Positions 3,481 to 13,042 of a stretch of 40,568 nt of DNA are shown here, in pieces. Source of the stretch: Rhodococcus rhodnii NBRC 100604 (lineage in GTDB: Bacteria; Actinomycetota; Actinomycetes; Mycobacteriales; Mycobacteriaceae). How positions within the stretch are numbered: position 1 is the first letter of the stretch; every line of letters starts with the position of its first letter. Location of the stretch: NCBI RefSeq assembly GCF_001894925.1, contig NZ_BCXD01000033.1, positions 1-40,568 on the forward strand, written 5' to 3'. The notes under the pieces are model-generated. The model saw only the letters and a list, made by a program, of their open reading frames with translations. It was not told the origin of the DNA and did not search any database. Both the position numbers and the translations under genes were made by a program.

Positions 3481-4119
3481 GTGTACGGCGACGTCAAGGA
3501 GCGCATCCTCGTGGGCGACCTGCCGGGCGGCGAACTCATCAGCGAAGGCGAGGTGGCGACCCGAATCGGCGTCAGCCGCACGCCCGTGCGCGAGGCGTTC
3601 CTGCGGCTCGAGGCCGAGGGATGGATGCGGCTCTACCCCAAGCGCGGCGCGCTCGTCGTCCCGATCCCGGAGGGCGAGGCCGCGAACATCGTGGACGCGC
3701 GCCGGCTCGTCGAGTCGCACGCCGTCACCACGCTCGCCGGCGATCCGCAGCTGCGCGCGCACGTGCTCGCGCAGCTGCACGAGAACTTGGAGCGTCAGCA
3801 CGAACTCGCCCGTCACGGCGACGTCGCGGCCTTCAGCGCGGCGGACGCCGACTTCCACACCGCCATCGTCGGCGGCTCCAACCCGCTGCTGCGCGCCTTC
3901 TACATTGGACTTCGGGAGCGGCAGCGGCGGATGACGGCGCGTTCGCTCGCGCGTGATCCCGAGCAGCTCCCGCGCATCATCGACGATCACACCCGGCTGT
4001 TCACGCTGGTCGAGACGGCCGACGCCGACGGTTTCGACGACGCACTGCGGATCCACATGGAGCAGGTGCACGCACTGCGTCCGCCCGCGCGCGGCGTCCA
4101 GGACGGGGGTGCGCGATGA
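3481..4119 (+). CDS. GntR family transcriptional regulator, FCD subfamily
   Basis: A 212-residue regulator. The N-terminal winged helix (about 1-65) has the GntR signature GVSRTPVREAFLRLEAEGW followed by the wing KRGALVV. The C-terminal all-helical FCD ligand domain (about 75-205) contains metal-binding-type positions in DADFHTAIVG and HMEQVH. A TAG lies directly before the GTG, so this is the most upstream possible start. No clear ribosome site is visible. The stop overlaps the ATG of the MFS gene (ATGA), making that transporter the likely target, with the ligand likely to be its substrate. The ligand cannot be read from sequence. Confidence 0.88.
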   Translation: MYGDVKERILVGDLPGGELISEGEVATRIGVSRTPVREAFLRLEAEGWMRLYPKRGALVVPIPEGEAANIVDARRLVESHAVTTLAGDPQLRAHVLAQLHENLERQHELARHGDVAAFSAADADFHTAIVGGSNPLLRAFYIGLRERQRRMTARSLARDPEQLPRIIDDHTRLFTLVETADADGFDDALRIHMEQVHALRPPARGVQDGGAR

Positions 4120-5396
4120 GCACGACGACCTCGCGGCAGGGCCCCGATGCACCGGCAGCCCCTGTGGGCACGCGGGCGTGGCTCGCGGTCGCGGCGACGA
4201 TGTTCGTCGTCGCGTGGGGCGGCAACGAGTTCACGCCGCTGCTCGTGATGTACCGCGAGGACCACGGCTTCTCGCCCGTCGTGGTGGACGTCTTCCTGTT
4301 CGCCTACGTCCTCGGCATCGTGCCCGGTCTGCTGCTGGGCGGCCCGCTGTCCGATCGGATCGGGCGCAGGCCCGTCCTGATCCCCGCGCCGTTCCTCACG
4401 ATCGCCGGATCGATCGTCCTCGCGGCGGGCGCCGATTCGGCCGCGCTCATCGTCGCCGGCCGCATTCTGTGCGGTGTGGCGCTGGGCCTCGGCATGGCGG
4501 TGGGCGGCAGCTGGATCGCCGAACTCTCCCGCATGGACCCGACGATCCCGCCGGGCGCCCCGGCCCGCCGGGCCGCGATGAGCCTCACCGCGGGTTTCGC
4601 GCTCGGAGCCGGCGTCGCGGGCGTTCTCGCGCAGTGGGCGCCGTGGCCGAGCGGACTCTCGTACAGCGTGCACATCCTGCTGTCGGTCGCGGCGGTCGCC
4701 GCTGTCACCCGTGTTCCGGAGACCCGGGCCGCGCGACGCGACCGTGGTCCGCTGCGTGACGACCTGCGCATCCCCGCGGCGGGCCACCGCCGGTTCGTGT
4801 TCGTCGTCGCCCCGCTCGCACCGTGGGTGTTCGGGTCGGCCGCTGCGGCGTACGCGGTGCTGCCCGCCGTCATGACGTCGCGCACCGAGCTGCCGCTCGC
4901 GTTCTCCGCACTCATGTGCGTCGTCGGGCTCGGTGCGGGCTTCCTCATCCAGTCCCTCGGCCGGCGTATCGACGATCCGCGCAACTCACGCGGTGTGCTC
5001 GTCGCGTTGCTCTTCGTGATCGCCGGAATGGTCGCCGCGGCGATCGCGGCGACCGTCCTCACCGTCCCGGTCGCGATCGTGGCGTCGATCGTGCTGGGCT
5101 GCGGGTACGGCATGGCGCTCGTGTCGGGACTGCAGGAGGTGCAGCGCATAGCCGGACCGGACGACCTCGCGGGCCTCACCGCCGTCTTCTACTCGCTGAC
5201 GTACCTCGGCTTCGCGACGCCCGCGATCATGGCGTCGCTGTCGGAGACGTTCGCGCCCGTCACCTACCCGGTGATGTTCGGGTTCGGTGCGATCGCCGCA
5301 GCGGTGTGCCTCGTGCTCGTCGTCGTGAAGTGGACGGCGCACCTGCCGCAGCGCGGCGATCAGGCGAAGCGGGTCTCGGGCAGCGGCGCGGCGTAG
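4116..5396 (+). CDS. MFS transporter
   Basis: A 426-residue major facilitator protein with about 12 membrane helices. The loop 2-3 signature GGPLSDRIGRRPVL is present. After helix 6 there is a short charged cytoplasmic linker, and the second half begins near FVFVVAPLAPWVFG. It is translationally coupled to the preceding GntR regulator. Substrate is not predictable: both drug exporters and metabolite importers fit. The last 37 bases overlap, tail to tail, the end of the convergent M1 peptidase gene. Confidence 0.87.
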   Translation: MSTTTSRQGPDAPAAPVGTRAWLAVAATMFVVAWGGNEFTPLLVMYREDHGFSPVVVDVFLFAYVLGIVPGLLLGGPLSDRIGRRPVLIPAPFLTIAGSIVLAAGADSAALIVAGRILCGVALGLGMAVGGSWIAELSRMDPTIPPGAPARRAAMSLTAGFALGAGVAGVLAQWAPWPSGLSYSVHILLSVAAVAAVTRVPETRAARRDRGPLRDDLRIPAAGHRRFVFVVAPLAPWVFGSAAAAYAVLPAVMTSRTELPLAFSALMCVVGLGAGFLIQSLGRRIDDPRNSRGVLVALLFVIAGMVAAAIAATVLTVPVAIVASIVLGCGYGMALVSGLQEVQRIAGPDDLAGLTAVFYSLTYLGFATPAIMASLSETFAPVTYPVMFGFGAIAAAVCLVLVVVKWTAHLPQRGDQAKRVSGSGAA

Positions 5397-6679
5397 AGCC
5401 ACCGGTCGAACAGGCCTCGCAGCGACGCGTCGCCCGCGCGGACCGCGAGGTCGACGAACTGCTCGGTCGTCACGAGGCCGTAGCGGTGCTCGTCGGTCCA
5501 TCGGCGCAACAGGGCGAAGAACGCGTCGTCGCCGAGTTCGCGGCGCAGTGCGTGCAGTGTGAGCGCCCCACGCTTGTAGACGCGGTCGTCGAACATCGAC
5601 GCGGGACCGGGGTCGCCGACGACGATCGTGCGCGGTGTGCGTTCGAGTCCTTCGTACGCGCGTTGCGCGTGGATCGCGGCGTCCGCGCGGCCCGAGTTCT
5701 CGGACCACAACCACTCGGCGTAGCAGGCGAAACCCTCGTGCAGCCAGATGTCGCGCCAGCGTCGCGCGGTGAGGCTGTTGCCGAACCACTGGTGCGCGAG
5801 TTCGTGCGCGACGAGCCGCTCGGACCTGCCGGAACCGTCGCAGTGATTGGCGCCGAAGACCGACAGCGTCTGCGCCTCGACGGGAATCTCGAGGTCGTCG
5901 TCCGTCACGACGACGGAGTACAGCGGGAACGGGTAGGGCCCGAAGAGCGTCTCGAACACCTGCATCATCTCGCGCTGGCGCGCGAAGTCGTGCTCGAAGC
6001 CCGCGCGCAACCGCGCCGGGACGTACGCGTCGATCGGGACCGGCTTGGTCGCGACACCGATGCGGTCGTAGTAGCCGATCTGCAGCGTCGCGAGATAGGT
6101 CGACATCGGTTCGGGCTGGTCGTACACCCACGTCGTGCGGCTCGCGCGCGTCCGTCGCTCGGTGAGGGTGCCGTTCGCGACGGCGGTGTAGGGCGAGTCG
6201 GTCGTGATCGCGATCCGGTAGGCGGCCTTCGCGCTCGGGTGGTCGTCGCACGGGAACCACGACGCCGCGCCGTTGGGCTGGCTCGCGACGATCACGCCTT
6301 CGGTGAGTTCCTCGAATCCGACCTGCCCCCAATCGGATCGGAGCGGAGCCGGGGATCCGCCGTACCGCACGACGAACACGACGGCGGCGCCGGACGCGAA
6401 CTCGCGACCGGCGGTGAGGGTGAGCTTGCCGCCGCGGTGGGTGTACTTGACCTTGCCCGCGCCGGCGATCGAGACCTTCGTGACGTCGAGTCGGTCGGCG
6501 AGGTCGAGCGAGAAACTGTTGCGCGCCTGCGTCGTCACGGCCGTGACGGTCGCGGTGGCCTCGAGCCGGTTGCTCGACACCTTGTACGTCAGGTCGAGGT
6601 CGTAGCGCGAGACGCGGTAGCCGCGGTTGCCGTTCTGCGGCAGGTACGAGTCGATCGGCTCGTCGGCGGTTTTCTTCAC
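5360..6679 (-). CDS. Small M1-family zinc metallopeptidase (aminopeptidase type)
   Basis: A 439-residue gluzincin. Zinc ligands are HELAHQWFGN with H292, H296 and E315 (HExxH-x18-E), numbering from the GTG at 6679. The N-terminal beta domain (about 20-200) and thermolysin-like domain are present. The large ERAP1-type C-terminal domain of long M1 enzymes is missing. The usual G-x-M-E-N exopeptidase loop is replaced by a P-V-E-A-Q-T version near 266-271. I choose the GTG that forms a GTGA overlap with the synthetase stop. An upstream ATG at 6718 would give 452 residues. Tight coupling to the synthetase suggests that it trims or degrades the synthetase product, but a general peptidase role cannot be excluded. 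Confidence 0.87.
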   Translation of the reverse strand: MKKTADEPIDSYLPQNGNRGYRVSRYDLDLTYKVSSNRLEATATVTAVTTQARNSFSLDLADRLDVTKVSIAGAGKVKYTHRGGKLTLTAGREFASGAAVVFVVRYGGSPAPLRSDWGQVGFEELTEGVIVASQPNGAASWFPCDDHPSAKAAYRIAITTDSPYTAVANGTLTERRTRASRTTWVYDQPEPMSTYLATLQIGYYDRIGVATKPVPIDAYVPARLRAGFEHDFARQREMMQVFETLFGPYPFPLYSVVVTDDDLEIPVEAQTLSVFGANHCDGSGRSERLVAHELAHQWFGNSLTARRWRDIWLHEGFACYAEWLWSENSGRADAAIHAQRAYEGLERTPRTIVVGDPGPASMFDDRVYKRGALTLHALRRELGDDAFFALLRRWTDEHRYGLVTTEQFVDLAVRAGDASLRGLFDRWLYAAPLPETRFA

Positions 6680-9600
6680 GACGCGCCACCCCAGGGAGCG
6701 ATGGGATTGCCCTGCCATCGGGTCGACGGGGGCACCGCGTCGCCGCGCATCACGAGCGATGCGGGACCCACCGTCGCGCCGTCGCCGAGGCTCGATGCGG
6801 GCAGTGCGACGCAGTGCGGCCCGAGGGTCGCACCGGCGCCGACGGTGACGGTGTCCATGGCCATGATCCGATCATGAAACAGGTGGGTCTGCACGACGCA
6901 TCCGCGTTCGACGGTCGCGCCGTCGCCGAGCGTCACGAGGTCGGCTTCGGGCAGCCAGTACGACTCGCACCACACGCCGCGTCCGATGCGGGCGCCGAGG
7001 CAGCGCAGCCACACCGACAGGGCGGGCGTGCCGGCCGCGAACCGGGCGAACCAGGGAGCCGCGACCGTCTCGACGAAGGCGTCGGCGACCTCGTTGCGCC
7101 ACACGAACGAACTCCACAGCGCGTGTTCCTCGGTACCGATACGGCCGACGAGCAGCCACTTCGCGGCGGCCGACACCGCGGCAGCGACGACCCCCGCGAG
7201 CAGCAGCACGACACCGCCAGTGACGACCGCGAACCAGACGCCGACGGCGAGAGCACGCGCGAGCGTCAGGACGACGGCGAGGCCGATGCCGAAGGTCGCG
7301 AACGCAGCGAACAGGCGGCACGTCTCGACGGCACCGCGCGCGACCGCGAGCCGGCGCGGCGGCTCGTACGTGCGTGAGACGTCGGCGGATTCGGGGGCGC
7401 GCCGCAAGCGCACCGGTGGGCTGCCGAGCCACGACGAGCCCGACTTCGCCTTGGACGGCGCGGCGGAGAGGACGGCGACGAGGCCGTACTTGGGGACGCG
7501 GCGGCCCGGCGCCGTCATCCCGGAGTTGCCGAGGAAGGCGCGCTTGCCGACCTTCGCGCGCTCGATCCGCAGCCATCCGCCGCCGAGTTCGTAGCCGGCG
7601 ATCATCGTGTCGTCGGCGAGGAACGCGCCGTCGGCGACCGTCGTGAACTTCGGCAGCAGTAGCACCGTCGACGCCTCCACACCGCGACCGACCTTCGCGC
7701 CGAGCAACCGGAGCCAGACGGGCGTGAGCAGTCCCGCGTACAACGGGAACAGGAAGGTGCGTGCCGAGTCCATGAGACGTTCGGTCGCCCACACCTGCCA
7801 TCCGACGCGGCTGCGGACGGGGTGGAAGCCCTCGCTCAGCCTGAGCGAGAGTGCGCGTACGCACACGAGTGTCGCGAGCGCGAACACCGCGAGCGCGAGC
7901 AGGGAGCCGGGGATCAGTGCCGCGAACGCGCGGCCGAGGGCGGCGGGGAAGGTCTCGGCGCCGCTCATCGCCCAGGCGACCACGGCGAAGCCGCTCGCGA
8001 GCGCGAGGACGGGCAGGCCCGCGAGTGCGATCGCGCTCGCCCCGTACACCGCGACCCACCAGCGGGCACGCGGCGGCGGATCGGACGGCCAGGCCCTGCT
8101 CGCCTTGCCCACCTTCGCCGCGGGCGAACCGGCCCAGTGCTGCTCCGCCTTGACCTTGCCGAACACCGCCGAGCCCGCCGCGACGTGCGCGCGCTTGCCG
8201 ATCCGTGCGCCCGGCGCGAGCGTCGATCGCGCACCGACCGTCGCGCCCGCACCGATCCTGATCGGGCCGATGTGCACGACGTCGCCGTCGATCCAGTGCC
8301 CGGACAGGTCGACCTCGGGCTCGACGGAGCATCCGCGGCCGAGTTCGAGCATTCCCGTCACGGGCGGGAGGCTGTGCAGGTCGACCCCGCCCTCCACGCG
8401 TGCTCCGAGCGCCCGCGCGAAGTAGACCATCCACGGCGCACCCGAGAGATTCGTCGCGCCGCTCGCGTCGACGACGTTCTGCGCGGCCCACAGCCGAAGG
8501 TGAACGCTGCCGCCACGCGGGTAGGTCCCGGGTTTCAGGCCACGCAGGAGCGTGCGGGCCGCGAGCGCGGCCACGGCCATGCGCCCGGGTGGTGCCACGA
8601 AGACGAGGAAGCCGATCGCCACGATCCACCACGACACCGGCTCGACCCACGGGACGTCGGTGAACCACGAGAGGACACCGACGCCCGCGGCGACCCACGT
8701 CGTCCACTGCAGCGCCGCGAGCGTCGCGATGGGGATCCCCGCGAGGAGCTGGACGATCTGTGCGCGGCGCGGGGTCGGCACGACGGTGCGTTCCTCGACC
8801 TGCGCCGTGGGTGCGAGGTCGTCGAGGAAACGCGCGAGGGCGCCGAGCCGGGGGTGCTCGTAGAGATCGGCGACCGTGATCTGCGGGTGGCGGGTGCGCA
8901 GTGTGGCGACGAGTTGTGCCGCCGCGAGCGAGCCGCCGCCGAGTTCGAAGAAGTCGTCGCGTTCGCCGGTGACCTGCGCGCCGAGGACGTCGGACCATTG
9001 CCGCGCAACCCATTCCGCGGTGTCCGACAGACCGAGCTGCTCGACGGACGAGTCGTCGCTACCGGGAAGCGGCCACGGCAGGGCGTCACGATCGACCTTG
9101 CCCGACGTGCGCGTCGGGAGTTCCTCGACGACGGCGATCCTCGGGACGAGCGCTGCGGGAAGACGCTCGGCGAGTCGGCGATGCGCGGCGTGCAGGTCGA
9201 CGGTGCCGTCCGCGCTCACGACGTACCCGACGAGGACACGGCTGCCCGTCGCGGTGCGACGGACGGCGACGGCACCGCCGCTGACTCCCGGCAGGTGCTG
9301 GAGCGCGGCGTCGATCTCGCCGAGTTCGATGCGCCTGCCGCCGAGCTTGATCTGGTCGTCCGCACGGCCCTGGAAGATCAGGCCGGTGGTCTCGAGGCGC
9401 ACGAGGTCGCCGCTGCGGTACGCGCGGTCCCAGCCGAGAGTGGGCATGGGAGCGTACTTCTCGGCATCCTTCGCGGGGTCGAGATACCGCGCGAGACCGA
9501 CACCGCCGATGACGAGTTCGCCGACCTCGCCGACGGCCACCGGGGTGTCGTCGGGCGCGACGACCGCGAGATCCCAGCCGTCGAGGGGGAGTCCGATCGA

Positions 9601-10590
9601 GACCGGTGAGACGCCGTCGAGCCGCGCCCCGCACGCGACGACGGTGGCCTCGGTGGGGCCGTACGTGTTCCACACCTCGCGGTCGGGAGTCACGAGCCGC
9701 TCGCCGAGCTCGGGCGGGCACGCCTCGCCGCCGAAGATCAGCAGTCGTACGCCGTCCAGCGCGTCGACGGGCCACAGCGACGCGAGCGTCGGGACGGTGG
9801 AGACCGCCGTGATGTCGCGGGCGACGAGCCACGGCCCGAGATCGACCCCGCTGCGGACGAGCGACCGCGGCGCGGGGACGAGGCACGCGCCCGAACGCCA
9901 GGCGAGCCACATCTCTTCGCACGACGCGTCGAACGCGACGGAGAGGCCGGCGAGGACCCGGTCACCGGGGCCGAGCGGGGCATCGGCGAGAAACATGCGC
10001 GCCTCGGCGTCGACGAAGGCTGCGGCGTTGCGATGCGTCACCGCAACACCTTTCGGCAGTCCGGTGGATCCCGACGTGAAGATGATCCACGCGTCGTCGC
10101 CGGGTTCGGGTGCCCGCGTGGCGGAACCGGACGCCGTGACGGCGGCAGTGGGTGCGATGCCGTCGGCCGTCGCGATCGCGGCGACGCCGGCCTCGCCGAA
10201 GACGGTGCGCGCGCGCTCGTCCGGATCGTCGGCGTCGACGGGAACGTACGCGGCTCCCGCCGAGAGCACCGAGAGGATCGTGACGTAGAGCCGGTACGAG
10301 CCGGAGGGCATGCGCACGCCGACACGATCGCCCGCGCCGACGCCTGCGGCTTCGAGCGAGCGCACCCCGAGTTCGATCTCGTCGAGCAGTTCGGAGTAGG
10401 TGAGCGTGACGGCGCCGTCGTCGATCGCCGTCGTGTCGGGGAACCGTGCGGCGGTCTCGGCGAGGATGTCGACGAGTGTCCGCGGGGGCGGTGCTGCGCT
10501 CGACCGCAGCATCGTCTCGGGAATCGGCGGCGACGGTGATGCCGGGGTGTTCCCCGACGGGGTGTCGTGCGGCTCGTTGTCGACGCTCAC
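6676..10590 (-). CDS. Pls/PosA-type single-module nonribosomal peptide synthetase with membrane and hexapeptide-repeat C-terminal half
   Basis: A 1304-residue protein. An adenylation domain (about 35-510) carries IIFTSGSTGLPKG, NTYGPTEAT, YRSGDLVRL, the GRADDQIKLGGRRIELGEID block and SGKVDRDAL. A carrier domain has its pantetheine serine at about 554 (FFELGGGSLAAAQL). From about residue 610, pairs of membrane helices alternate with soluble segments rich in hexapeptide (left-handed beta-helix) turns. No condensation or thioesterase domain is seen. This layout matches epsilon-poly-lysine synthetase (Pls) and relatives, which join one amino acid into a homopolymer at the membrane. Aligning the anchor motifs by eye, I read specificity residues D-A-E-S-I-G-T-V-V-K, which resembles lysine-type codes. 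The GTG start has GAAGGA 11 nt upstream. Confidence 0.88.
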   Translation of the reverse strand: MSVDNEPHDTPSGNTPASPSPPIPETMLRSSAAPPPRTLVDILAETAARFPDTTAIDDGAVTLTYSELLDEIELGVRSLEAAGVGAGDRVGVRMPSGSYRLYVTILSVLSAGAAYVPVDADDPDERARTVFGEAGVAAIATADGIAPTAAVTASGSATRAPEPGDDAWIIFTSGSTGLPKGVAVTHRNAAAFVDAEARMFLADAPLGPGDRVLAGLSVAFDASCEEMWLAWRSGACLVPAPRSLVRSGVDLGPWLVARDITAVSTVPTLASLWPVDALDGVRLLIFGGEACPPELGERLVTPDREVWNTYGPTEATVVACGARLDGVSPVSIGLPLDGWDLAVVAPDDTPVAVGEVGELVIGGVGLARYLDPAKDAEKYAPMPTLGWDRAYRSGDLVRLETTGLIFQGRADDQIKLGGRRIELGEIDAALQHLPGVSGGAVAVRRTATGSRVLVGYVVSADGTVDLHAAHRRLAERLPAALVPRIAVVEELPTRTSGKVDRDALPWPLPGSDDSSVEQLGLSDTAEWVARQWSDVLGAQVTGERDDFFELGGGSLAAAQLVATLRTRHPQITVADLYEHPRLGALARFLDDLAPTAQVEERTVVPTPRRAQIVQLLAGIPIATLAALQWTTWVAAGVGVLSWFTDVPWVEPVSWWIVAIGFLVFVAPPGRMAVAALAARTLLRGLKPGTYPRGGSVHLRLWAAQNVVDASGATNLSGAPWMVYFARALGARVEGGVDLHSLPPVTGMLELGRGCSVEPEVDLSGHWIDGDVVHIGPIRIGAGATVGARSTLAPGARIGKRAHVAAGSAVFGKVKAEQHWAGSPAAKVGKASRAWPSDPPPRARWWVAVYGASAIALAGLPVLALASGFAVVAWAMSGAETFPAALGRAFAALIPGSLLALAVFALATLVCVRALSLRLSEGFHPVRSRVGWQVWATERLMDSARTFLFPLYAGLLTPVWLRLLGAKVGRGVEASTVLLLPKFTTVADGAFLADDTMIAGYELGGGWLRIERAKVGKRAFLGNSGMTAPGRRVPKYGLVAVLSAAPSKAKSGSSWLGSPPVRLRRAPESADVSRTYEPPRRLAVARGAVETCRLFAAFATFGIGLAVVLTLARALAVGVWFAVVTGGVVLLLAGVVAAAVSAAAKWLLVGRIGTEEHALWSSFVWRNEVADAFVETVAAPWFARFAAGTPALSVWLRCLGARIGRGVWCESYWLPEADLVTLGDGATVERGCVVQTHLFHDRIMAMDTVTVGAGATLGPHCVALPASSLGDGATVGPASLVMRGDAVPPSTRWQGNPIAPWGGAS

Positions 10591-10841: not shown

Positions 10842-10953
10842 ACTCCTCACGGAATCCCGGCACCACACGATCGTCGCGTGCGCGTCCCGCCGCGCCCCGG
10901 TGGTCCGCTGTTGCCGGGTCCTCCCGGAGTCCCCCGGCTGGAGGGATTCTCCG

Positions 10954-12258
10954 ATGACGACACTGCTCGATCACACCAGGCTCGATGGCGCCGGACTCGA
11001 TCACACCGCCCATCGCTCGGAATGCGCACGGCACGAGACGATTCCGCCGCTCGCCGAGGTGGTGCGCGCCTGCGCCCCGGTTCCCGGCGGGGAGCGGCCC
11101 TACGTCGACTTCGACTGCGCGGCCAGTGCTCCTGCGACGGTCGCGGTCACGCGGCGCATCACCGAACTGCTGCCCACCTACGCGAGCGTCCACCGCGGCG
11201 CCGGCCACCCCTCTGCGGTCTCGACCGAGGCGTACGAATCCGCACGGCGGACGGTCGCGGAGTTCGTGGGAGCGAGGCCCGGCGACGTCGTCGTGTTCAC
11301 CCGCAACACGACGGACGCGCTGAACCTGCTCGCCGGGTGCGTCCCCGGTGAGGTCGTCCTGCTCGACATCGAGCATCACGCGAACCTGCTGGCATGGCGG
11401 AACTCTCGCGTCGTGCCGGCGGCGGACACCGTCGACGAGACCGTACGCCGCGTGGTGGCGGAGCTGTGCTCGCGTCCCACGGCGTTGCTCGCGGTGACCG
11501 GCGCGTCCAACGTCACGGGCGAGACGGTGCCCATCGAACGACTGGCCGACGTCGCGCACCGGCTCGGCGCTCGGATCGCCGTCGACGCGGCACAACTCGC
11601 GCCGCATCGCGCACTCGACATCGCCGCGAGCGGCGTCGACTACGTCGCCTTCTCGGGGCACAAGCTGTACGCGCCGTTCGGTGCGGGTGCGCTCGTCGGG
11701 CGGCGGGACTGGCTCGACGCCGCGCCGCCGCATCTCGCCGGCGGGGGAGCGACGCGAGATGTGCAGGTGGACGGCACGTCCGGTGCGCCCTCGATCCGTA
11801 CGACCTGGCAGCCCTCACCGGCACGCCACGAGGGTGGGACGCCGAACCTGCTGGGCTCGGCCGCACTCGCCGCCGCATGCGAGGAACTGTCCGGCATCGG
11901 GTTCGACGCGATCCGCGAGCACGAGACGAGGCTGTGCGAACGGTTGCTCCACGGGCTGCGCCGCATCGACGGCGTCCGGGTGCACCGGCTGTGGCACGAC
12001 GCCCCCGACACCGTGGGAATCGCGACGTTCACCGTCGACGGCGCGGCCCCGCGCGCTGTCGCGGAACACCTTTCGGAGCAGCACGCGGTGGGGGTGCGCG
12101 ACGGCCGATTCTGCGCGCACCCGCTGCTCGACCGGCTCGGTCTGCAGGGCGGCGCTGTCCGCGCGAGCCTCGGCCTGGGCACGTCCTCCGACGACGTCGA
12201 CGCCCTCCTCGACGCGGTGGCCGATTTCGTCGCCACCCGTCGAGGTCGGCGAGGCTAG
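10954..12258 (+). CDS. Cysteine desulfurase-like class V aminotransferase (SufS/Csd type)
   Basis: A 434-residue PLP enzyme of the NifS/SufS fold. The cofactor lysine is in FSGHKLYAPFGAG, with the preceding PLP-binding aspartate and glutamine in VDAAQLAPH. A substrate-binding ATG-type stretch is seen as RNTTDALNLLA. The C-terminal region has RDGRFCAHPLL, placing a cysteine where SufS-type desulfurases carry the persulfide cysteine. It would move sulfur from cysteine, giving alanine. The ATG at 10954 is chosen because GGAGGG lies 8 nt upstream. A GTG at 10900 in the same frame has no such site. Control by the SAM-IV RNA and the cysteine leader that follows place it in sulfur assimilation rather than general iron-sulfur assembly. 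The exact substrate is open. Confidence 0.85.
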   Translation: MTTLLDHTRLDGAGLDHTAHRSECARHETIPPLAEVVRACAPVPGGERPYVDFDCAASAPATVAVTRRITELLPTYASVHRGAGHPSAVSTEAYESARRTVAEFVGARPGDVVVFTRNTTDALNLLAGCVPGEVVLLDIEHHANLLAWRNSRVVPAADTVDETVRRVVAELCSRPTALLAVTGASNVTGETVPIERLADVAHRLGARIAVDAAQLAPHRALDIAASGVDYVAFSGHKLYAPFGAGALVGRRDWLDAAPPHLAGGGATRDVQVDGTSGAPSIRTTWQPSPARHEGGTPNLLGSAALAAACEELSGIGFDAIREHETRLCERLLHGLRRIDGVRVHRLWHDAPDTVGIATFTVDGAAPRAVAEHLSEQHAVGVRDGRFCAHPLLDRLGLQGGAVRASLGLGTSSDDVDALLDAVADFVATRRGRRG

Positions 12259-12379: not shown

Positions 12380-12407
12380 CTCACGCGCCCGCTGTCCTGC
12401 GCGTGAG
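12380..12407 (+). promoter_or_regulatory. Hairpin between leader peptide and downstream gene
   Basis: A 9-bp perfect stem (12380-12388 with 12399-12407) and 10-nt loop lie 21 nt after the leader stop and 16 nt before the Shine-Dalgarno. Without a T-tract it may be a terminator of the attenuator or simply bring the leader segment and ribosome site together. Confidence 0.6.
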
Positions 12408-12436
12408 TGGCCCCCGTACACCCGAGGAGTCTCCCC

Positions 12437-13042
12437 ATGTCCCCGACATCTCTGCAGCGCCGTACCGCAACGACCGTCCGGCGACGATCGACCGTTCACC
12501 TCGCCGTCCACGTGCGCGGCGACGGCCACCATCCCGGTGCGCCGGCGTCGGCCCGGGCCGGCGCACTGGACACGTGGGTCGATCTCACGTCCCCCGCCGA
12601 CGATCCGCTCGACCCGACCGCACAGCCGCCGCACCTCGTCCGGGTGCGGGCGACCGACCTGCGCGACGCGCGGGAGCAGTACGTGCGGCTGCGATCCGAC
12701 GGGTCCGCCGCGGCGTTGCTCGACGTCGAGGTGCTGCTGGCGGACGACGCTCGCAGTGCCCGGGCACGACTGGCCGAGCTCGAGGGCATCGTGGCGACGC
12801 GGCCGACGACGGTGCGTTACGTCGGGACGCCCCTCGGGCTCGCGGGCCTGATCTCGGACATCGGATCCGCGGGCGTCGCGGACGGCGTGACGCTCCAGCC
12901 GCTCGCGGCGGAGGGTTCGCTCACCCGCATCGCACGCGGCACCGTGCCCTGGCTGGCCGCACACGGGCTCGTGGCCGATCACGGCGCCGTGGCGCGCGCC
13001 GCCGCGCTCGCCGGCATCGATCCGGCGGTCGCGGCGGTGTGA
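12437..13042 (+). CDS. Short protein resembling a luciferase-like monooxygenase that lacks its core
   Basis: A 201-residue protein not matching a family I can name over its full length. Residues about 20-35 (HLAVHVRGDGHHPGA) resemble the first strand and active-site loop of NtaA/SnaA/DszA-type flavin monooxygenases. Residues from about 75 resemble their last third (helix with LLADDARSARARL, then the block YVGTPLGLAGLISDIGSAG, ADGVTLQP). The roughly 200 residues between, which hold most of the barrel, are absent. GAGGAG (12424-12429) sits 7 nt before the ATG. Regulation by the cysteine leader fits a sulfur-scavenging family. It may be non-catalytic, or a stable deletion derivative. Confidence 0.6.
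   Translation: MSPTSLQRRTATTVRRRSTVHLAVHVRGDGHHPGAPASARAGALDTWVDLTSPADDPLDPTAQPPHLVRVRATDLRDAREQYVRLRSDGSAAALLDVEVLLADDARSARARLAELEGIVATRPTTVRYVGTPLGLAGLISDIGSAGVADGVTLQPLAAEGSLTRIARGTVPWLAAHGLVADHGAVARAAALAGIDPAVAAV

Follow-up and report, generated by a model that had tools for sequence, protein, structure and literature searches.

A pls-pldII-type operon predicted to make and trim epsilon-poly-L-lysine in Rhodococcus rhodnii

We analyzed a stretch of 40,568 nucleotides from Rhodococcus rhodnii NBRC 100604 (contig NZ_BCXD01000033.1 of assembly GCF_001894925.1, hereafter the window), with attention to two overlapping genes on its reverse strand. The first (pls-type) encodes a synthetase of the Pls/PosA family, which resembles non-ribosomal peptide synthetases (NRPS), and the second (pldII-type) encodes an M1 metallopeptidase. 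Their family, domains, specificity code, catalytic residues, overlap and conservation can be read from the sequence itself. A previous inspection of the letters alone (the sequence-only reading) had already placed both open reading frames (ORFs), with their GTGA overlap, where we found them. The features of the pair are as follows:

6676..10590, minus strand: pls-type gene for a Pls/PosA-family NRPS-like synthetase, 1304 amino acids, GTG start (TIGR02353)
9079..10476, minus strand: adenylation domain, residues ~39-504 (PF00501; alignment with 7wew)
9097..9930, minus strand: ten specificity residues, D221, A222, E225, S264, I285, G287, T309, V317, V318 and K498 (alignment)
8824..9015, minus strand: carrier (thiolation) domain, residues 526-589 (PF00550, E 3.8e-12)
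6700..8754, minus strand: C-terminal polymerising region, residues 613-1297 (TIGR02353 match; hydropathy)
6676..6679, minus strand: GTGA overlap of the peptidase GTG start and the synthetase TGA stop (ORF coordinates)
5360..6679, minus strand: pldII-type M1 metallopeptidase gene, 439 amino acids (PF17900 and PF01433)
5735..5806, minus strand: HExxH-x18-E zinc site, H305, E306, H309 and E328 in the numbering of a 452-residue form (alignment)

The synthetase matches the TIGR02353 model (NRPS_term_dom) over residues 613-1297 with 736.6 bits against a curated cut-off of 423.1, and because the family scores this high, chance resemblance is excluded. Its Pfam matches (E up to 0.001) comprise AMP-binding, PP-binding and two hexapeptide families, with AMP-binding_C below its own cut-off and no condensation or thioesterase family among them. 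Six hydropathy peaks form three pairs (residues 612-630 and 656-674, 854-872 and 893-911, 1093-1111 and 1121-1139), and a seventh, weak peak lies at residues 946-964. The helix pairs (612-674, 854-911 and 1093-1139) interleave with hexapeptide-rich segments, and the three pairs of peaks fit the published Pls layout of three C domains separated by six membrane segments (PMC8117764). Pfam, TIGR02353 and hydropathy thus agree with the architecture described in the sequence-only reading, namely adenylation and carrier domains followed by membrane helices that alternate with hexapeptide segments, without condensation or thioesterase domains. Over its full length the synthetase is 53.7% identical to a Streptomyces protein annotated as Pls, whose gene likewise overlaps by GTGA with an M1 gene downstream. 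The window's genome has one TIGR02353 gene above the cut-off, and its three matches to PF01648 represent candidate carrier-activating enzymes.

The specificity code of the synthetase, obtained by alignment, is DAESIGTVVK, the same ten letters that had been read by eye. All ten are equal to those of the solved domain of an epsilon-poly-L-lysine synthase (7wew), whose source strain we take to be Streptomyces albulus, and the adenylation domain shares 317 of 492 residues with it (64%; 639.6 bits). In the same alignment, the nine code positions covered in the core of the Acinetobacter PosA read DMEHNGTVS. This equals the published PosA code, DMEHNGTVSK (PMC10522769), and the register of the alignment was thereby checked. 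It has been proposed that code position 2 sets the length of the accepted side chain, with Phe for diaminopropionate or diaminobutyrate, Met for ornithine and Ala for lysine (PMC10522769). The window code, Ala being its second and Glu its third letter, describes a lysine-type pocket, and the possibility of a non-basic code, named beforehand as a finding that would count against a lysine enzyme, was not borne out by the alignment.

The partner protein contains the compact HExxH-x18-E peptidase site that had been noticed earlier, a Glu at the GAMEN-like position that binds the N-terminus of the substrate (E281) and a catalytic Tyr (Y381). The canonical M1 motif is GAMEN, and the residues around E281 in the window protein read PVEAQ. 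The zinc site, this Glu and the Tyr are identical in 97 of 99 aligned M1 sequences, the window's included. In the remaining two, from loci L007 and L051, the zinc site is present along with the Tyr stretch; neither shows the exact letters VEAQ, so an equivalent of E281 is unconfirmed for both. The closest solved structure by sequence is a zinc metalloprotease, 6a8z, presumably from Deinococcus radiodurans, and the nearest named relative among the matches listed is a protein of Rhodococcus triatomae (68%). An in-frame ATG at 6718 would extend the protein to 452 amino acids (6718..5360); the public record of the window's M1 protein (P0003) has 439 amino acids and corresponds to the GTG-start form.

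Neither hydropathy nor alignment revealed a signal peptide in the window M1. Across 96 loci of relatives, the distance from the pls stop to a conserved YLPQNG-type motif of M1 has a median of 12 codons, which leaves little room for a leader in the relatives; two further loci, L007 and L051, have 10 and 19 codons. A hydrophobic stretch upstream of the motif occurs in only one of these 96 loci, L050, within a long upstream frame of doubtful coding status. The Kitasatospora partner at L125 is likewise without a leader, and a twin-arginine-like leader, recognized by eye, opens the Streptomyces partners at L124 and L159. Since the window M1 shows no signal peptide, trimming of the polymer would be cytoplasmic, unlike in S. 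albulus, for which trimming on the outside has been described and PldII is placed outside the membrane (PMC9223678). We infer that the M1 hydrolase of Rhodococcus and its relatives is cytoplasmic.

Taken together, the two genes very probably constitute a pls-pldII-type operon that makes epsilon-poly-L-lysine and trims it with the coupled M1 enzyme. In the proposed mechanism, the adenylation domain would activate L-lysine as its adenylate, and the lysine would be loaded onto the carrier domain of the synthetase. The membrane-embedded C-terminal region would then join lysines from alpha-carboxyl to epsilon-amino group, yielding epsilon-poly-L-lysine. The coupled M1 protein would remove lysines from this polymer within the cytoplasm, which may limit its length and protect the producer. 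The making and trimming of a lysine-type isopeptide polymer has good support; what we infer, from sequence features and their published counterparts, is the substrate, the product and the ability of M1 to hydrolyse that product.

These counterparts are close. In S. albulus, pldII encodes an M1-type degrading enzyme, lies directly downstream of pls as in the window, and is translationally coupled to it; its repression led to longer polymer and lower self-tolerance (PMC9223678). The Streptomyces partner is a reported epsilon-poly-lysine-degrading enzyme (PMC8117764, PMC9223678), and the pls-M1 layout and GTGA overlap of Streptomyces sp. NBC_01454 are as in the window. Corynebacterium variabile DSM 44702, a coryneform actinobacterium of another genus that we compared by description, also has an operon of pls and a peptidase gene, and its synthetase yields epsilon-poly-lysine when expressed in S. 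coelicolor (PMC8117764). Because the S. albulus and C. variabile operons have been published, the window pair adds one more member to an operon type already known, which is common to many actinobacteria. The family assignment, the lysine-type code, the Glu suited to a cationic side chain and the make-and-trim pairing, all proposed in the sequence-only reading, are consistent with both the sequence and the published pls-pldII work. Its claim of an undescribed product for this lineage went too far, since Rhodococcus was listed in 2021 among the genera with Pls homologues, whose pockets were identical or highly similar to those of confirmed Pls (PMC8117764), and the coupled arrangement is not new either (PMC9223678, PMC8117764). 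A novel product was rejected, as the code is identical to that of known Pls. A limited open-licence literature search found no report of epsilon-poly-lysine isolated from Rhodococcus, which is weak evidence of absence.

Other members of the family differ from the window at defined positions. PosA of Acinetobacter baumannii, a delta-poly-L-ornithine synthetase, shares the pocket Asp and Glu and is 44% identical in its core over 135 residues, but its code has Met in second and Ser in ninth place, and its gene forms a single-gene operon, unlike the window pair (PMC10522769). Synthetases of gamma-poly-diaminobutyrate and beta-poly-diaminopropionate have the same architecture as the window enzyme (PMC8117764), but carry Phe at position 2 where the window has Ala (PMC10522769). 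A Streptomyces plasmid relative (L126), 33% identical to the window synthetase, has the code DFECLSAVTK; the genes after it encode a diaminobutyrate transaminase-family protein and an aspartate kinase.

To describe the conservation of the pair, 99 loci were counted, 19 and 80 from two sets of relatives with some genomes in both; the count excludes the window's own copies (L001 and L005) and three weak matches (L002-L004). The code DAESIGTVVK was found in all 99, and in 98 the M1 gene lies downstream of the synthetase on the same strand; the remaining locus, L082, reaches the contig end. A chance origin of the GTGA overlap was rejected, as the Streptomyces locus L124 has the identical overlap and M1 is conserved beside pls. 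At the Tsukamurella and Williamsia loci L047-L050 and L054 the two genes are split, with minimum gaps of 267 to 2067 bases; at L096 the gap is at least 45 bases. The gap at L054 holds a DoxX-type gene on the opposite strand, and that at L047 holds ORFs, including one of 327 amino acids without a Pfam match. Among another group of 19 loci, M1 is present in all 11 further ordinary (not second-copy) ones, L110 and L114-L123; the code at L116 is DAESVGTVVK.

With regard to distribution, the synthetase was found above the cut-off in all 28 genomes searched in the genus, and outside the genus 6 of 16 same-order genomes in the sample of relatives have a full-length match of at least 60% identity. Class-wide, the synthetase occurs in 30 of the 148 genomes sampled (the window's own counted), and members of the same family without it in that sample include G109 and G125. 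Among 36 other places listed class-wide, 29 were examined as loci, and the code could be read in 26 of them (not in L152, L154 and L155): 24 are lysine-type and two are DFEY-type. M1 adjoins 22 of the 24 lysine-type loci. It is also present at three (L124, L125 and L159) of five Streptomycetaceae plasmid loci.

Several observations weigh against a simple make-and-trim operon. The lysine-code loci L138 and L145 show no M1 in ~1.5 kb after the synthetase, and L145 (G065:C214), which has the exact code DAESIGTVVK, is merely 36% identical to the window synthetase. The Streptomycetaceae plasmid loci L158 and L160 have no M1 within 2.5 kb. Three genomes of the genus carry a second synthetase copy (L111, L112 and L113) that has no neighbouring M1, none being found within ~4 kb. 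Identity between the window M1 and its Streptomyces counterpart is just 44%, and the leader of the latter is missing from the window M1. In addition, culture of C. variabile reportedly gave no detectable polymer (PMC8117764), which means that operons of this kind may be silent. The absence of an M1 neighbour in relatives had been set out in advance as a possible refutation; the partner is there in nearly all loci of relatives, and only some lysine-code copies do without it. The pls-M1 pairing is therefore strong yet not obligatory.

The second copies at L111 and L112 have the full lysine code, and at L113 the frame is broken near residue 225 so that the code is partly readable. The copy on plasmid pROB01 of R. 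opacus B4 (423171-427049; L127/L128, the same as L112) is surrounded by CYTH-CHAD, MarR, response regulator, histidine phosphatase, PhoU and PstSCAB genes. Near all three second copies there is a relative of MarR, and near two of them one of CHAD. Relatives of CHAD, PhoU, PstB and the histidine phosphatase were found in 0 of 80 of the relatives' fetched flanks (up to 5 kb), and no link of the chromosomal pls to phosphate genes was detected there; the pROB01 MarR has a relative in 8 of the 80 flanks.

Besides these copies, divergent paralogues (L105-L109) were detected in five related genomes. They are 32-35% identical to the window synthetase, all five have the code DFEYLGTVTK, and a relative of the window M1 is absent from the fetched 10-11 kb loci. 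At L105, the next two downstream genes encode a BPL_N-like protein and then an HGSNAT_cat/acyltransferase-type protein. Three loci of class members, L155-L157, have another kind of M1 with a leader (34-36% over the part compared) nearly 1 kb downstream of the synthetase; L156 and L157 have DFEY-type codes and that of L155 is unread. Because these loci carry one, non-lysine polymers may have M1 companions as well.

The pair is flanked in the window by two genes on the opposite strand:

10900-12258, plus strand: class-V aminotransferase gene, upstream and divergent
4116-5396, plus strand: gene of a major facilitator superfamily (MFS) transporter, downstream and convergent with the M1 gene

The MFS and M1 genes share 37 bases at their 3' ends. 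Nine window neighbours, the second permease (1916-2560) not among them, were sought in the fetched flanks of the 80 relatives. The class-V aminotransferase was found in 22, a tRNA-editing protein in 20, a flavin reductase in 15, the MFS transporter in 7, a GntR protein in 6, an ATP-binding cassette (ABC) ATPase in 3 and the ORF at 12407-13042 in 1, and neither the ABC permease nor the alpha/beta hydrolase in any (0/80 each). M1 is thus the sole steady partner of pls among the genes tested. A larger conserved cluster was rejected, as none of the nine neighbours sought exceeds 22 of 80.

The same enzymology might serve another purpose, in that the polymer would be an intracellular or envelope polycation with a cellular role rather than a secreted antimicrobial. 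The presence of the synthetase in every genome searched in the genus would sooner be expected of a core function than of an antibiotic that is optional, and an M1 without signal peptide and an M1-less second copy on pROB01 among CYTH-CHAD, PhoU and Pst genes point in the same direction. Set against this are the lack of the phosphate-related genes around the relatives' loci and the same-family genomes without a synthetase, and we regard such a role as possible, if on the unlikely side. It is quite improbable that M1 is a general aminopeptidase, encoded in the same operon but inactive on the polymer. M1 enzymes often clip ordinary peptides, the nearest solved structure by sequence, 6a8z, is a zinc metalloprotease, and some lysine-code synthetases have no M1, but no other neighbour accompanies pls so steadily and the Streptomyces partner is reported to degrade epsilon-poly-lysine (PMC8117764, PMC9223678). 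Polymerisation of another diamino acid (ornithine, diaminobutyrate or beta-lysine) or a derivative is very improbable: a single pocket change shifts the substrate preference of PosA (PMC10522769), codes are not proof of substrate, and the presence of the lysine code in the distant L145 shows that the code alone is not bound to one close clade, but the residue at position 2 is the Ala of lysine enzymes rather than Met or Phe, the ten letters equal those of 7wew, and the divergent paralogues combine another code with the lack of a window-type M1.

An operon that makes epsilon-poly-L-lysine and trims it therefore remains our preferred explanation. Going beyond it, and only tentatively, we suggest that in Rhodococcus and its relatives epsilon-poly-lysine could be a core cellular polycation and not an optional secreted antibiotic, with synthesis on the inner side of the membrane and turnover by a cytoplasmic M1, and that a hydrolase-free second copy was recruited to a phosphate/polyphosphate neighbourhood in some strains; as a whole, this proposal is unlikely. 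It is worth noting that, of a gene pair studied as an industrial trait of Streptomyces, the synthetase occurs in every Rhodococcus genome searched and that the hydrolase looks intracellular. With the synthetase in all of these genomes and such a hydrolase, a natural, non-antibiotic role of epsilon-poly-lysine would thereby become testable in tractable laboratory strains.

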